The notes under the pieces were generated by a model. The model saw nothing but the letters and a program-made list of their open reading frames with translations. It did not search any database and was not told the origin of the DNA. Below are positions 23,640 to 30,346 of a stretch of 64,000 nt of DNA, piece by piece. The stretch's first letter is position 1. Each line of letters opens with the position of its first letter. This stretch comes from Pseudomonas sp. UFMG81. GTDB taxonomy: Bacteria; Pseudomonadota; Gammaproteobacteria; Pseudomonadales; Pseudomonadaceae. The translations under genes were made by a program, and so were the position numbers. Location: NCBI RefSeq assembly GCF_015354575.1, contig NZ_JACAFQ010000012.1, positions 1 to 64,000 on the forward strand. Reading direction: 5' to 3'.

Positions 23640-25118
23640 TTACTTGTCGGCGTGATACTGCGCATCAGCGGTTTCAAAACGCGAAACCATGCTGTTCGAC
23701 GGGCTGCCCAGCTTGCTCACCACCAGGATCGCGATGCTGGCGAACAGGAAGCCCGGGATGATCTCGTACAGGCCCAGGCCGACGTAGTTCTTCCACAGGA
23801 TCACGGTCAGCGCACCGACCACGATACCGGCCAGGGCGCCGTTGCGGGTCATGCCCTTCCACAGTACCGAGATCAGCACCACCGGGCCGAAGGCGGCACC
23901 GAAGCCGGCCCAGGCGTAGGCCACCAGGCCCAGCACACGGTTCTCGGGGTTGGCAGCCATGGCAATGGCGATCAGCGCAACGGCCAGCACCATCAGGCGG
24001 CCGACCCAGACCAGCTCAGTCTGAGAAGCGTTCTTGCGCAGGAACGACTTGTAGAAGTCTTCGGTCAGGGCGCTGGAGCACACCAGCAGCTGGCAGCTCA
24101 GGGTGCTCATTACCGCGGCCAGGATGGCCGACAGCAGCACACCGGCGATCCACGGGTTGAACAGGATCTTGGCCAGTTCGATGAACACCCGCTCATGGTT
24201 CTCGGTGACCGGGCCGGCGAGGTCCGGGTGCGCCGAGAAGTAAGCGATGCCGAAGAAGCCCACGGCGCAGGTACCGGCCAGGCACAGGATCATCCAGGTC
24301 ATGGAGATGCGGCGGGCGTTGGCGATCGACTTGACCGAATCGGCGGCCATGAAGCGCGCCAGGATGTGCGGCTGGCCGAAGTAGCCCAGGCCCCAGCCCA
24401 TCAGCGAGATGATGCCGATGAAGGTCGCGCCCTTGAACATGTCGAAGTGCGCCGGGTTCACCGCCTCGATGGCGAGGAAGGTGGTGTCGAAGCCACCGGT
24501 GGAGATCAGCACGATGATCGGGGTGAGGATCAGCGCGAAGATCATCAGCGAGGCCTGCACGGTATCGGTCCAGCTCACCGCCAGGAAACCACCGACGAAG
24601 GTGTAGGCGATGGTCGCGGCAGCACCGGCCCACAGGGCAGTCTCGTACGGCATGCCGAAGGTGCTTTCGAACAGGCGGGCGCCGGCGACGATGCCGGAGG
24701 CGCAGTAGATGGTGAAGAACACCAGGATCACGATGGCGGAAATGATCCGCAGCAGGCCGGTCTGGTCTTCGAAGCGGCTGGAGAAGTAGTCCGGCAGCGT
24801 CAGGGCGTCACCGTTGTGCTCGGTCTGCACACGCAGACGTCCGGCGACGAACAGCCAGTTCAGGTAGGCGCCGACGGTCAGGCCGATGGCGATCCAGGCC
24901 TCGGAAAGGCCCGCGAAGTAGATGGCGCCCGGCAGGCCCATCAACAGCCAGCCGCTCATGTCCGATGCGCCGGCGGAAAGCGCGGTGACCACGCTGCCGA
25001 GGCTACGGCCGCCGAGAATGTAGTCGGAAAGGTTCTTGGTGGAGCGATAGGCGGCGAAGCCGATCAGCACCATTGCCGCAATGTAGATCACGAAGGTGAT
25101 CGTTAGTGGATTGCCCAT
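23640..25118 (-). CDS. putP: Sodium/proline symporter PutP
   Basis: 492-residue sodium:solute symporter with about 13 membrane helices, importing proline with Na+. Conserved family segments include YILGGRSLGSVVTALSAGASDMSGWLLMG in two parts, GYFGQPHILARFMA and the LSAILAAVMSTLSCQLLVCSSA helix. The start ATG 25118 (MGNPLTITF) was chosen over the open frame to 25223. It is divergent from putA, with the putA-putP control region between them containing eight GTTGCA hexamers; PutA is expected to repress it in the absence of proline. Confidence 0.97.
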   Translation of the reverse strand: MGNPLTITFVIYIAAMVLIGFAAYRSTKNLSDYILGGRSLGSVVTALSAGASDMSGWLLMGLPGAIYFAGLSEAWIAIGLTVGAYLNWLFVAGRLRVQTEHNGDALTLPDYFSSRFEDQTGLLRIISAIVILVFFTIYCASGIVAGARLFESTFGMPYETALWAGAAATIAYTFVGGFLAVSWTDTVQASLMIFALILTPIIVLISTGGFDTTFLAIEAVNPAHFDMFKGATFIGIISLMGWGLGYFGQPHILARFMAADSVKSIANARRISMTWMILCLAGTCAVGFFGIAYFSAHPDLAGPVTENHERVFIELAKILFNPWIAGVLLSAILAAVMSTLSCQLLVCSSALTEDFYKSFLRKNASQTELVWVGRLMVLAVALIAIAMAANPENRVLGLVAYAWAGFGAAFGPVVLISVLWKGMTRNGALAGIVVGALTVILWKNYVGLGLYEIIPGFLFASIAILVVSKLGSPSNSMVSRFETADAQYHADK

Positions 25119-25148
25119 GAGTTGTGCCCTGGCGTTGTTTTTATCTCT

Positions 25149-25408
25149 TGCAACCACCGTGCGCGACGATGGTTGCACCCAGGCGGCGCATCCTATGCAA
25201 CAACGTGAACGAGGTGCAACCATTTTTCATTTGCAAGTTGCACCCGGCCATGTATTTTCGGACAGAACCGCTTTTTTGCTCCTTTTCGGAGCAAACATGC
25301 TGCTTTCCAGAAGAAAACGCACCAAGAACCTTCCTTTTTAGTCCGTGGAAACTTCCTTCAGACGAGTTGCACCTTAACCCGCTAATTTTCGGGTTGCACC
25401 CGGTTGCA
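25149..25408. promoter_or_regulatory. PutA operator array in the putP-putA control region
   Basis: Eight copies of GTTGCA, the core bound by E. coli PutA: plus strand at 25172, 25237, 25366, 25393 and 25403, minus strand at 25149, 25196 and 25215. Several have the extended form GGTTGCACCC. Five cluster 30-125 bases upstream of putP with centres 19-24 bases apart and three lie 72-115 bases upstream of putA. The region is A/T-richer than its surroundings, as expected for promoters. The repeated GTTGCA is seen; binding by this PutA is inferred from its ribbon-helix-helix domain. Confidence 0.85.
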
Positions 25409-25479
25409 CCCGAATTGTCCTACAGGCTAATCTTGCCTCCAGCTTAGGCCACATTCGTGGCCAATAACGAGGACAAGAA

Positions 25480-28400
25480 ATGGCGACTACCACCCTTGGG
25501 GTCAAACTCGACGACCCGACCCGTGAGCGACTCAAAGCAGCTGCGCAGTCCATCGACCGCACGCCGCACTGGTTGATCAAGCAAGCGATCTTCAACTATC
25601 TCGAGAAGCTCGAGGGTGGCGCCACCCTGAACGACCTCAACGGCCACCCGGCCGCGACCGGCGACGACGCCGGCGAAGCCCCGACCGACCACGCCCACCA
25701 GTGCTTCCTGGAGTTCGCCGAAAGCATCCTGCCGCAGTCGGTGCTGCGCTCGGCGATCACCGCCGCGTACCGCCGCCCCGAGCAGGAAGTGGTGCCGATG
25801 CTGCTGGAGCAGGCGCGCCTGCCTGCCGCCCAGGCCGAGGCCACCAACAAGTTGGCCGCAAGCCTGGCCGACAAGCTGCGCAACCAGAAGAGCGCCGGCG
25901 GCCGTGCCGGCATCGTCCAGGGCCTGCTGCAGGAGTTCTCGCTGTCCTCGCAAGAAGGCGTGGCATTGATGTGCCTGGCCGAAGCCCTGCTGCGCATCCC
26001 CGACAAAGGCACCCGTGACGCGCTGATCCGCGACAAGATCAGCACCGGCAACTGGCAGCCGCACCTGGGCAACAGCCCGTCGCTGTTCGTCAACGCCGCC
26101 ACCTGGGGCCTGCTGCTGACCGGCAAGCTGGTCAGCACCCACAACGAATCCGGCCTGACCTCCTCGCTCACCCGCATCATCGGCAAGAGCGGCGAGCCGA
26201 TGATCCGCAAGGGCGTCGACATGGCCATGCGCCTGATGGGCGAGCAGTTCGTCACCGGTGAAACAATCGCCGAAGCCCTGGCCAACGCCAGCAAGTTCGA
26301 AGCCAAGGGCTTCCGCTACAGCTACGACATGCTCGGCGAAGCCGCGCTGACCGAGCACGACGCGCAGAAATACCTGGCCTCCTACGAGCAGGCGATCCAC
26401 TCGATCGGCAAAGCGTCGCACGGCCGCGGCATCTATGAAGGCCCGGGCATCTCGATCAAGCTCTCGGCCCTGCACCCGCGCTACAGCCGCGCCCAGTACG
26501 AGCGCGTGATGAGCGAGCTGTACCCGCGCCTGCTGTCGCTCACGCTGCTGGCCAAGCAGTACGACATCGGCCTGAACATCGACGCCGAAGAGGCCGACCG
26601 CCTGGAGCTGTCGCTGGACCTGCTCGAGCGCCTGTGCTTCGAGCCATCGCTGGCCGGCTGGAACGGCATCGGCTTCGTCATCCAGGCCTACCAGAAGCGC
26701 TGCCCGTACGTGATCGACTACGTCATCGACCTGGCCAAGCGCAGCCGCCACCGCCTCATGATCCGCCTGGTAAAAGGCGCGTACTGGGACAGCGAGATCA
26801 AGCGCGCCCAGGTCGAAGGCCTGGAAGGCTACCCGGTGTACACCCGCAAGGTGTACACCGACGTTTCCTACGTCGCCTGTGCCCGCAAGCTGCTGGCGGT
26901 CCCGGAAGCCATCTACCCGCAGTTCGCCACCCACAACGCCCACACCCTGTCGGCCATCTACACCATCGCCGGGCAGAACTACTACCCGGGCCAGTACGAG
27001 TTCCAGTGCCTGCACGGCATGGGCGAGCCACTGTACGAGCAGGTTGTAGGCAAGGTTTCCGAAGGCAAGCTGAATCGTCCGTGCCGCGTGTACGCCCCGG
27101 TCGGCACCCACGAAACCCTGCTGGCCTACCTGGTACGCCGCCTGCTGGAAAACGGCGCCAACACCTCGTTCGTCAACCGCATCGCCGACCACTCGATCTC
27201 GATCCAGGAACTGGTCGCCGACCCGGTCGTCAGCATCGAGCGCATGGGCACCCAGGAAGGCAGCATCGGCCTGCCGCACCCGCGCATCCCGATGCCGCGT
27301 GAGCTGTATGGCAACGAGCGGGCCAACTCGGCCGGCATCGACATGGCCAACGAACACCGCCTGGCGTCGCTGTCCTGCGCCCTGCTGGCCACCGCCCACA
27401 ACGACTGGAAAGCCGCCCCGCTGCTGGCCTGCGCCGCCAGCGAACAGGCTGCCGTGCCGGTGCTGAACCCGTCGGATCATCGCGATGTGGTCGGCCATGT
27501 GCAGGAAGCCACCGTCGCCGACGTCGACAACGCCATCCAGTGCGCGCTCAACGCCGCACCGATCTGGCAGGCCACCCCGCCAGCCGAGCGCGCCGCGATC
27601 CTGGAACGCGCCGCCGACCTGATGGAAGCCGATATCCAGCCGCTGATGGGCCTGCTGGTGCGCGAAGCCGGCAAGACCTTCGCCAACGCCATCGCCGAAG
27701 TGCGCGAGGCCGTGGACTTCCTGCGCTACTACGCGGTGCAGGCACGCAACGACCTGCGCAACGACAACTGCCGCCCACTGGGCCCGGTGGTGTGCATCAG
27801 CCCGTGGAACTTCCCGCTGGCGATCTTCTCCGGCCAGGTGGCCGCAGCGCTGGCCGCCGGCAACCCGGTACTAGCCAAGCCCGCCGAACAGACCCCGCTG
27901 ATCGCCGCCCAGGCCGTACGCCTGATGCTCGAAGCCGGTATCCCTGAAGGCGTGCTGCAACTGCTGCCAGGCCAGGGCGAAACCGTCGGTGCCGGCCTGG
28001 TCGGTGACGAACGCGTCAAGGGCGTGATGTTCACCGGCTCCACCGAAGTTGCCCGCCTGCTGCAACGCAACATCGCCGGCCGTCTGGACAACCAAGGCCG
28101 CCCGATCCCGCTGATCGCCGAAACCGGTGGCCAGAACGCCATGATCGTCGACTCCTCGGCCCTCACCGAGCAGGTGGTGATCGATGTGGTCTCCTCCGCG
28201 TTCGACAGCGCCGGCCAGCGTTGCTCGGCCCTGCGTGTGCTGTGCCTGCAAGAAGACTCCGCCGACCGCGTGATCGAAATGCTCAAGGGCGCCATGGCCG
28301 AAAGCCGCCTGGGCAACCCGGAGCGCCTGTCCGTGGACATCGGCCCGGTGATCGACGCCGAAGCCAAGGCTGGCATCGAGAAGCACATCCAGGGCATGCG

Positions 28401-29433
28401 CGACAAAGGCCGTACGGTCTATCAAGTCGCCATCGCCGAAGGTGAAGAGATCAAGCGCGGCACCTTCGTGATGCCGACCCTGATCGAGCTGGAAAGCTTC
28501 GACGAGCTGCAGCGCGAGATCTTCGGCCCAGTGCTGCACGTGGTGCGCTACAACCGCAACGACCTGGACCAGCTGATCGAGCAGATCAATGCTTCCGGCT
28601 ACGGCCTGACCCTGGGCGTGCACACCCGCATCGACGAGACCATCGCCAAGGTGGTGGGCAACGTCAACGCCGGCAACATGTACGTCAACCGCAACATCGT
28701 TGGCGCCGTGGTCGGTGTGCAGCCGTTCGGTGGTGAAGGCCTGTCCGGCACCGGTCCGAAAGCTGGCGGCCCGCTGTACCTGTACCGCCTGCTGTCGACC
28801 CGCCCGGCCGACGCCATCGCCCGCCACTTCCAGGCCGACGATGCACGCAGCCAGGCCGACACCAGCCTGCGCGACCAGCAGCTCAAGCCGCTGACCACCC
28901 TCAAGACCTGGGCGGCCGGCAGCCAGCAAAGCGACCTGGCCGCGCTGTGCGAGCAATTCGCCGAGCAGACTCAGAGCGGTATCACCCGTGTACTGCCTGG
29001 CCCGACCGGCGAGCGCAACAGCTACAGCGTGCTGCCCCGTGAACACGTGCTGTGCCTGGCCGACAACGAAGCCGACCTGCTGGCGCAGTTCGCAGCGGTG
29101 CTGGCGGTGGGCAGCTCGGCAGTGTTCCAGGACGGCGAGCCGGGCAAAGGCCTGCGTGGTCGCCTGCCGAAGGAGCTGCAAGGCAAGATCAAGCTGGTAT
29201 CCGACTGGAGCCAGGATGACGTGGCGTTCGACGCGGTGATCCACCACGGCCATTCGGACCAGCTGCGCGCTATCTGTGAGCAGGTGGCCAAGCGCGCCGG
29301 TGCGATCGTTGGTGTGCATGGGCTGTCCAGCGGCGATCACCAGATCGCCCTGGAGCGCCTGGTGATCGAGCGGGCGGTGAGTGTGAACACCGCTGCTGCC
29401 GGCGGTAACGCCAGCTTGATGACCATCGGCTGA
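25480..29433 (+). CDS. putA: Trifunctional PutA: proline dehydrogenase, P5C dehydrogenase and put repressor
   Basis: 1317 residues. It oxidises proline to glutamate in two steps and, in its DNA-bound form, represses putA and putP. Domains: ribbon-helix-helix DNA-binding segment at residues about 1-47 (TTTLGVKLDDPTRERL, TPHWLIKQAIFNYL), FAD-dependent proline dehydrogenase barrel about 90-560 (RLVKGAYWDSEIKRAQ), then NAD-dependent aldehyde dehydrogenase about 650-1110 with the catalytic Cys915 in SAGQRCSALRV and Glu in ETGGQNAMIV, and a C-terminal lid domain. The start behind AACGAGGACAAGAA is clear. Ends in a strong terminator. Confidence 0.98.
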   Translation: MATTTLGVKLDDPTRERLKAAAQSIDRTPHWLIKQAIFNYLEKLEGGATLNDLNGHPAATGDDAGEAPTDHAHQCFLEFAESILPQSVLRSAITAAYRRPEQEVVPMLLEQARLPAAQAEATNKLAASLADKLRNQKSAGGRAGIVQGLLQEFSLSSQEGVALMCLAEALLRIPDKGTRDALIRDKISTGNWQPHLGNSPSLFVNAATWGLLLTGKLVSTHNESGLTSSLTRIIGKSGEPMIRKGVDMAMRLMGEQFVTGETIAEALANASKFEAKGFRYSYDMLGEAALTEHDAQKYLASYEQAIHSIGKASHGRGIYEGPGISIKLSALHPRYSRAQYERVMSELYPRLLSLTLLAKQYDIGLNIDAEEADRLELSLDLLERLCFEPSLAGWNGIGFVIQAYQKRCPYVIDYVIDLAKRSRHRLMIRLVKGAYWDSEIKRAQVEGLEGYPVYTRKVYTDVSYVACARKLLAVPEAIYPQFATHNAHTLSAIYTIAGQNYYPGQYEFQCLHGMGEPLYEQVVGKVSEGKLNRPCRVYAPVGTHETLLAYLVRRLLENGANTSFVNRIADHSISIQELVADPVVSIERMGTQEGSIGLPHPRIPMPRELYGNERANSAGIDMANEHRLASLSCALLATAHNDWKAAPLLACAASEQAAVPVLNPSDHRDVVGHVQEATVADVDNAIQCALNAAPIWQATPPAERAAILERAADLMEADIQPLMGLLVREAGKTFANAIAEVREAVDFLRYYAVQARNDLRNDNCRPLGPVVCISPWNFPLAIFSGQVAAALAAGNPVLAKPAEQTPLIAAQAVRLMLEAGIPEGVLQLLPGQGETVGAGLVGDERVKGVMFTGSTEVARLLQRNIAGRLDNQGRPIPLIAETGGQNAMIVDSSALTEQVVIDVVSSAFDSAGQRCSALRVLCLQEDSADRVIEMLKGAMAESRLGNPERLSVDIGPVIDAEAKAGIEKHIQGMRDKGRTVYQVAIAEGEEIKRGTFVMPTLIELESFDELQREIFGPVLHVVRYNRNDLDQLIEQINASGYGLTLGVHTRIDETIAKVVGNVNAGNMYVNRNIVGAVVGVQPFGGEGLSGTGPKAGGPLYLYRLLSTRPADAIARHFQADDARSQADTSLRDQQLKPLTTLKTWAAGSQQSDLAALCEQFAEQTQSGITRVLPGPTGERNSYSVLPREHVLCLADNEADLLAQFAAVLAVGSSAVFQDGEPGKGLRGRLPKELQGKIKLVSDWSQDDVAFDAVIHHGHSDQLRAICEQVAKRAGAIVGVHGLSSGDHQIALERLVIERAVSVNTAAAGGNASLMTIG

Positions 29434-29492: not shown

Positions 29493-29801
29493 CTAATCGT
29501 CGTAGTGGTAACGGCACTGCAGGATGGTCAGGGTTCCCACTTCGTAGAAGTAGACCAATCGGTGTTCGCGAGTGATACGGCGAGACCAGAAACCTGACAA
29601 GTCGCCTTTGAGCGGCTCTGGCTTGCCGGTGCCTTTGAAAGGGCTGCGCAGACACTCACAGATCATTGTGTTGATGCGCTGGAAGATAGCGACATCACTG
29701 TTTCGCCAGTAACCGTAGTCTTCCCAACCCTCAGTAGTGAAGGCCACGCTTGTGGTGCTTCGCGCCTCAGTCTTGTTTCGTTGCTTGGCTTTCACATTCA
29801 T
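29493..29801 (-). CDS. yoeB: Toxin YoeB (mRNA interferase)
   Basis: 102-residue RelE-fold ribosome-dependent mRNA endonuclease. All YoeB active-site residues are present: Glu in KPEPLK, Arg in EHRLVY, and the C-terminal His-Tyr in CRYHY, here followed by two extra Asp. GFWSRRITREHRLVY is the family hallmark. Canonical YoeB has 84 residues; the ATG at 29801 (AGGAA 10 bases upstream) adds about 17 N-terminal residues, while a GTG at 29747 would give 84 residues but lacks a well-spaced ribosome site. It overlaps the yefM antitoxin gene by 35 bases. Confidence 0.93.
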   Translation of the reverse strand: MNVKAKQRNKTEARSTTSVAFTTEGWEDYGYWRNSDVAIFQRINTMICECLRSPFKGTGKPEPLKGDLSGFWSRRITREHRLVYFYEVGTLTILQCRYHYDD

Positions 29802-30051
29802 CGAGTGCCAGTTCCTGGGTAACGGCCTTACCAGCCCGGAGCTGAGCAATGGAAGCGCGAAGACGCTTGGCGTTCGCGGACGACTCCAGCAGGTACATGG
29901 TCTCGCGCATGCCGTTGTAGTCCTCGAGCGAAATCATCACCACCGGTTCACCACGCTGACGTGTGATGACAGCCGGCTCATGGTCCCGGCATACGTCGTC
30001 CATTGTCTGCTTCAGGTCGGCGCGTGCCTGGCTGAACGTCAGTACATGCAT
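29767..30051 (-). CDS. yefM: Antitoxin YefM
   Basis: 94-residue Phd/YefM antitoxin that binds YoeB and represses its own promoter. The N-terminal dimer and DNA-binding domain begins MHVLTFSQARADLKQTMDDV and continues RQRGEPVVMISLEDYNGM, both family signatures; the C-terminal third is the toxin-binding tail. The start at 30051 sits behind GGAAAGAAAA; the longer frame is not conserved-looking. Its promoter overlaps two TGTACA-type half sites (30146-30163), the operator arrangement known for yefM-yoeB. Confidence 0.93.
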   Translation of the reverse strand: MHVLTFSQARADLKQTMDDVCRDHEPAVITRQRGEPVVMISLEDYNGMRETMYLLESSANAKRLRASIAQLRAGKAVTQELALDECESQATKQD

Positions 30052-30143
30052 TTTTCTTTCCTTTCCAGGTACCGCCTGGATCAGTTCTCGGGGGCCAACA
30101 AGCCTTGATGGCAGGTCGGTGCTGTGCGACCTGCCTGCCAAAC

Positions 30144-30171
30144 ATTGTACAAACTTACGTACAACTCGCAA
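30144..30171 (-). promoter_or_regulatory. yefM-yoeB promoter with overlapping YefM operator
   Basis: On the minus strand, TTGCGA (-35) and TACAAT (-10) are separated by 16 bases. Within this lie TGTACA at 30146-30151 and CGTACA at 30158-30163, spaced 12 bases centre to centre. E. coli yefM-yoeB uses a long and a short palindrome with TGTACA cores at the same 12-base spacing. The site begins about 93 bases upstream of the yefM start. Confidence 0.78.
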
Positions 30172-30346
30172 GGTCGAGCCCTGAAACAATTTGGAGCACT
30201 GATCGCCGCTGGGAAAGGTGGATATGGAACCGAAATTTCCGCAGCGGCAGAACAGCGTTAACTCCGGCCGTCATGTAGGAGGTGTCCCAAACCGGCGCTT
30301 GGCGCGATTTCAAGACAGCCCCACTCCCGCGGCAGTACCCAGTGGC

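Follow-up and report, generated by a model that had tools for sequence, protein, structure and literature searches.

The DNA analysed here is a window of 64,000 nucleotides from Pseudomonas sp. UFMG81, in which the genes putP and putA stand back to back. putP (23640-25118, minus strand) encodes a sodium/proline symporter of 492 amino acids (Pfam SSF, 5.2e-136), and it is divergent from putA in 97 loci of the genus. putA (25480-29433, plus strand) encodes the 1317-amino-acid trifunctional proline utilization protein, with Pfam matches to PutA_1st (2.3e-21), Pro_dh (1.1e-105) and Aldedh (3.7e-114), i.e. an N-terminal ribbon-helix-helix (RHH) domain joined to proline dehydrogenase and aldehyde dehydrogenase domains. 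Residues 1-45 are identical at all 45 positions to PDB entries 2jxg, 2jxh and 2jxi, which we take to be the solved structure of the P. putida PutA DNA-binding domain (PutA45), so the RHH domain that a preliminary description had assigned to PutA is borne out. PDB entries 2gpe and 2rbf, presumably the E. coli PutA RHH domain, match at about 2e-21, and DNA forms part of the structures 2rbf and 2jxi. Residues T5, G7, K9, R27, P29, H30 and W31 are invariant in an alignment of seven RHHs. Downstream of putA, two small overlapping reading frames (29493-30189, minus strand) resemble by eye what we take to be a YoeB/YefM-type toxin-antitoxin pair.

The gap between the two genes (25119-25479, 361 bp, 50% GC) contains eight exact copies of GTTGCA. 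Five are referred to here as core sites, namely E (25172-25177, plus strand), D (25215-25220, minus), C (25237-25242, plus) and the tandem pair T1 (25393-25398, plus) and T2 (25403-25408, plus), and three as accessory sites (25149-25154, minus; 25196-25201, minus; 25366-25371, plus). The preliminary description had counted eight hexamers between 25149 and 25408, five near putP and three near putA with one pair 10 bases apart, and both the count and the layout are correct. Its statement that many carry an extended flank was slightly generous, as the 10-mer GGTTGCACCC is found at three of the eight sites, GGTTGCACC at four and GTTGCACC at six. A 107-amino-acid open frame that may be spurious also spans the gap.

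Of all hexamers in the gap, GTTGCA is the most frequent. When the 361 bp were shuffled 20,000 times with dinucleotides preserved, it occurred 0.45 times on average and never more than five times, so that no shuffle reached eight copies; the preliminary description had named such a calculation as a possible refutation, and eight copies proved unusual for this composition. Elsewhere in the window, each 260-bp stretch starting at a GTTGCA holds at most two. Chance clustering or an effect of composition has a negligible probability as an explanation: the whole-window total, which is not raised (44 against 45.4 expected), can be put on its side, but it is rejected on the shuffle count, and conservation across 97 gaps and the lack of hexamers where no RHH was detected in PutA, both described below, also stand against it. 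The spacing GTTGCA-N4-GTTGCA occurs once in the genome to which the window belongs. GGTTGCACC on its own is no commoner genome-wide than its reversed control word (34 + 28 against 35 + 34 occurrences).

The preliminary description had also pointed to the intergenic regions of other pseudomonads for comparison. A search for the RHH (PutA_1st) gave a match in 113 of 119 Pseudomonas genomes, and upstream regions were taken from 112 primary RHH-positive putA copies, leaving out G076, where the match lies at a contig end. Divergent putP is present at 97 of these, and the 97 gaps were aligned. T1 and T2 are kept as exact hexamers in all 97, D and C in 92 each and E in 91, whereas the hexamers at 25196 and 25366 are kept in 35 and 19 and that at 25149 in one, the window itself; a minus-strand hexamer near the 25149 position is also found in L029/L272 (one gap) and L267. 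Sequence identity to the window averages 0.82 within hexamers versus 0.59 elsewhere. On this alignment, five sites are a genus-wide core and the other three are lineage-specific additions. A second set comprised 80 named loci, the best 80 of 579 relatives (78 titled Pseudomonas, one Paucimonas and one Pantoea), 12 of which have gaps already counted in the genus set. Among the 165 distinct gaps, three hexamers are present in 4, four in 10, five in 62 (the commonest number), six in 42, seven in 42 and eight in 5, counts that are not independent events because the genomes are related. Multiple copies of GTTGCA between divergent putP and putA, as expected of a put control region, are what was found. 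The tandem pair is the best-kept feature of the array, being exact at 110 of the 112 primary RHH-positive putA copies (97/97 with divergent putP and 13/15 without) and at 80/80 of the named loci (best 80 of 579 relatives).

Beyond these sets, 20 of 22 further RHH-positive loci, drawn from the best 30 matches and including 15 from two other families, also carry the tandem 10-bp pair. Within the series L196-L221, loci L207, L215, L216 and L217 were left out of this count, L207 and L217 being repeats of genomes already used, and the sample leaves out nine weaker matches with long reading frames. The exact pair is missing at L198 and L208, and in the primary genus sample at L021 and L022; in L022 the first hexamer is replaced by GTTGCG.

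In the six genus genomes where the RHH search gave no match, seven PutA loci were identified; one of these, L087, has a long reading frame in which no RHH was detected. GTTGCA is absent at all seven (0/7) over about 430 bp counted from the putA start, a figure that corresponds to a search span of 500 bp from a conserved anchor region. The sites are thus absent where PutA has no detected RHH; the converse fails at three RHH-positive loci. L174 (G097) and L114 (G107) are second PutA copies with a good RHH and no exact GTTGCA within 500 bp upstream, where the operator has possibly changed. In L053 (G138, from another genus of the family), the RHH reads TPQW in place of TPHW and a lone hexamer lies 256 bp upstream, so joint loss of reader and sites is possible there. 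Stand-alone frames of 76-86 amino acids with a PutA-like RHH (DRT[PS]HWFMKKA) were seen in three Pseudomonas genomes (L115, L176 and L177), and no GTTGCA is present in the 500 bp upstream of them.

The tandem pair is also specific to putA. The extended tandem word GGTTGCACNNGGTTGCAC occurs at 51 places in 50 of 59 genus genomes, against none for the reversed control word, and every place, both G045 copies included, lies just upstream of an RHH-bearing putA when compared by eye. Nine of the 59 genomes lack it: in G001 and G041 the RHH search had no match, and the other seven, which have an RHH-bearing PutA (G008, G012, G013, G014, G027, G028 and G042), all keep the plain 10-bp pair except G014. 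No wider PutA regulon is indicated by the tandem pair, the N4-spaced pair occurring once in the window's genome and the extended pair at putA only in the 59 genomes. Unlinked putP genes were sought in 23 genomes, four of them without a putP match. No array was found at any of the 18 loci, where a hexamer within 300 bp occurs only at L226 and L233; PutA control therefore does not follow putP wherever it is located, and that idea was rejected.

The putP leader contains another short element. A AANAANAA word (AAAAACAA) at 25135-25142 on the minus strand is a possible site of Crc/Hfq translational control, AANAANAA presumably being the Crc/Hfq target motif. Words of this type lie at most 60 nt from putP in 78 of the 80 named loci (best 80 of 579 relatives) and before putA in none of the 80. 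By eye, several unlinked putP leaders bear AACAACAA-like words.

A scan of the gap for consensus sigma-70 promoters gave no match, and TTGCAC agrees with TTGACA at three positions only. Comparative spacing nevertheless points to a promoter-like arrangement on each side. Towards putA, TTGCAC (25404-25409, overlapping T2) is followed by the -10-like element TAATCT (25428-25433, plus strand), all six columns of which have at least 0.9 identity. TTGCAC-N17/18-TA[AC][TC]CT is present in 97/97 gaps, with a spacer of 17 bp in 84 and 18 bp in 13 and with TAATCT, TACTCT or TAACCT as the -10 word after T2. The same elements (TTGCAC-N16-18-TA[AC][TC]CT) lie within 400 bp upstream of 13/13 tested putA genes that have no adjacent putP. 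Towards putP, TTGCAC (25214-25219, overlapping D) is followed by TAGGAT (25190-25195, minus strand), five of whose six columns have at least 0.9 identity and which the accessory hexamer at 25196 abuts. GTTGCAN-N17/18-TAnnnT is present in 92/92 gaps with site D, the five of 97 without that site being left out of the test, with a spacer of 18 bp in 90 and 17 bp in two; the -10 word is mostly TAGCAT (58) or TAGGAT (32). Constancy of spacing is the informative part, because the pattern allowed 14-21 bp. In the 97-gap alignment the putA spacer itself is mostly poorly conserved and the putP spacer mixed. We infer promoter identity from these spacings: the hexamer likely supplies the -35 of both the putP and the putA promoter, in which case RNA polymerase would be excluded by a PutA dimer bound at D or T2.

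Taken together, the hexamers are, with a probability of about 0.92, PutA operators, and the gap is a put control region for proline-controlled autorepression. Their sites, statistics, conservation, promoter-like spacing and link with the RHH are shown, and the assignment of the hexamers to PutA in the preliminary description is strongly supported by the identical RHH, the genus-wide conservation, the absence of sites at RHH-negative loci and a pair specific to putA. The steps of control that follow (binding, repression, cooperativity and induction) are inferred. When proline is scarce, PutA dimers would bind GTTGCA(CC) via the N-terminal RHH and shut off putA and putP, the main work being done by the five conserved sites. 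T2, with T1 alongside, would cover the putA -35 and D the putP -35, while C and E flank the likely putP promoter, C immediately upstream and E immediately downstream; with T2 and D over the -35 elements, bound PutA would compete with RNA polymerase at both. The 10-bp tandem pair would place two dimers one helical turn apart on the same face of the helix, where cooperative binding is plausible. The three other hexamers, as lineage-specific additions, would probably tune repression. Flavin reduction is a step in PutA's response to proline, and when proline is present PutA would leave the DNA for the membrane, freeing the promoters.

Published work on related systems bears on several of these steps. 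According to PMC5879082, PutA moves from DNA to the membrane with proline in E. coli, Salmonella and P. putida, and both this paper and PMC8871633 (section 5.3) state that PutA represses putA and putP in P. putida. Gel-shift assays with an E. coli RHH chimaera and put DNA of that species are described in PMC5293562, and induction by proline of a P. syringae putA promoter fusion in PMC11327374. In PMC9132996, Ralstonia PutA is reported to activate its own gene, and the epsA promoter site that it protects contains no GTTGCA; the Ralstonia case warns against extending the repression model to all RHH-bearing PutA proteins. A literature search for PutA together with GTTGCA gave nothing on these operators among the matches listed.

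The preliminary description had suggested cooperative or looped repression. Looping is an addition to the operator reading rather than an alternative to it, and the loop would bring PutA at E, D and C together with PutA at T1 and T2 over some 156 bp (15 helical turns), shutting both promoters at once. We regard it as suggested but less probable than not. In 148 of the 152 distinct gaps that have the D-C couple, C lies 154-159 bp from T1, and in 85 gaps the standard deviation of this distance is 1.45 bp, against 44 bp for the length of the putP leader. Of three gaps out of range, two are shorter by 10 bp (five more gaps have no site C), the outer plus-strand site of E. coli sits 157 bp from its tandem pair, and, taking 10.5 bp per turn, the five core sites are in similar helical phase (R 0.90). 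That agreement in phase is weak, however, at P of about 0.03 with the tandem pair fixed and 0.10 with a scan of periods, and the stretch from T1 to the putA start is equally stable in length (standard deviation 1.12 bp). The exceptions to the C-to-T1 range measure 146, 148, 150 and 230 bp (the last in L318), of which 148 and 150 are off by a non-whole turn; in the set of further RHH-positive loci, L210 and L214 have 144 and 143 bp. A further 13 of 165 gaps are without the D-C couple and uncounted; in two of them, L320 and L263, the nearest plus-strand site is 138 and 107 bp from the pair. Pairwise gap counts in the loop interior were set aside, since alignment noise could produce such counts. 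A search of the literature on the put operon with looping gave PMC5879082 as the only match listed.

PutA as the only obvious regulator, another claim of the preliminary description, is incomplete. Section 5.3 of PMC8871633, a review, reports that the P. putida put promoters also need a positive regulator, as yet unidentified, whose expression appears sigma-N-dependent, and proposes CbrB, with a CbrB-like site (TcTTAC-N13-GcAACc-N22-GTgAaA) visible by eye. That the hexamers, or some of them, serve such a factor instead of PutA, as CbrB sub-sites or as sigma-54 -12 boxes (TTGCA), is very improbable. As sigma-54 -12 boxes the hexamers were rejected, since none of the eight has GG at -24, 10 bp from the GC at -12; the highest score of any GG-N10-GC word in the gap is 8/12. 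For CbrB, the GcAACc of the proposed site is close to the complement of GGTTGC. Against it, TGTTAC-N13-GTAACA with up to three mismatches is not in the window's gap (searched in the N13 form), and TCTTAC-N12-14-GCAAC is in none of the 97 + 80 gaps, the 80 being the best 80 of 579 relatives. The single partial CbrB-like match, GCAACC-N20-GTGAAA in L130, falls on the tandem pair, and GCAACC is the complement of GGTTGC, so the CbrB proposal may itself rest on a PutA operator, the sub-site being misread; this suggestion comes from gaps that do not include that of KT2440.

A candidate site for another regulator lies between the two promoters. The inverted repeat TTGCTCC-N5-GGAGCAA at 25276-25294 is at its only place in the genome. 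Of the 152 loop interiors, 99 contain an 8-bp inverted repeat with at most one mismatch, compared with 89 of 456 letter-shuffled interiors; in 67 of the 99 it is centred 106 or 108 bp from T1 of the tandem pair. A more speculative proposal, to which we give a low probability, is that the five core hexamers hold PutA dimers in one defined complex covering both promoters over 15 turns and the inverted repeat binds the missing activator. If true, repressor and activator would compete inside one nucleoprotein structure.

With the hexamers read as PutA operators, the region can be set beside known put systems. The P. putida put region, whose control by PutA autorepression was reportedly described by Vilchez et al. 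in 2000 (cited in PMC8871633 and PMC5879082), is alike in its divergent putA and putP, its RHH-bearing PutA and the identical first 45 residues. Of the best 80 of 579 relatives, P. entomophila COR5 has the gap most like the window's, with 87% identity and seven hexamers versus eight; the window is from a putida-like Pseudomonas. The put control region of E. coli and Salmonella, with its PutA operators, is said to have been treated by Zhou et al. in 2008. In E. coli MB57, 422 bp separate the annotated putP and putA, and the likeness extends to GTTGCA in the gap, a tandem pair 10 bp apart and a plus-strand site 157 bp from it. E. coli differs from the window in that its six exact matches, of which two overlap, fall at five separate places, the opposed arrangement of E, D and C is missing, and the start of putA is 32 bp from one of the sites. 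The preliminary description's statement that E. coli has fewer sites holds mildly, at eight places versus five (six matches), and because of lineage-specific extras only, the conserved core being five. The E. coli MB57 annotation also places a hypothetical gene, which may be spurious, over the put operators (L178, 2737-2946, minus strand). P. aeruginosa shares pathway and genus with the window; according to PMC5879082, its PutA has no RHH, its putA is activated by PruR and repression by PutA is unlikely.

The array is an ordinary put control region of a known kind with an above-average number of sites. What the analysis adds is the ranking of the operators into five conserved and three lineage-specific ones and a model in which a hexamer serves as the -35 of each put promoter. 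The conserved palindrome furthermore offers a lead for the put activator, and otherwise the comparison confirms a textbook autoregulatory enzyme.
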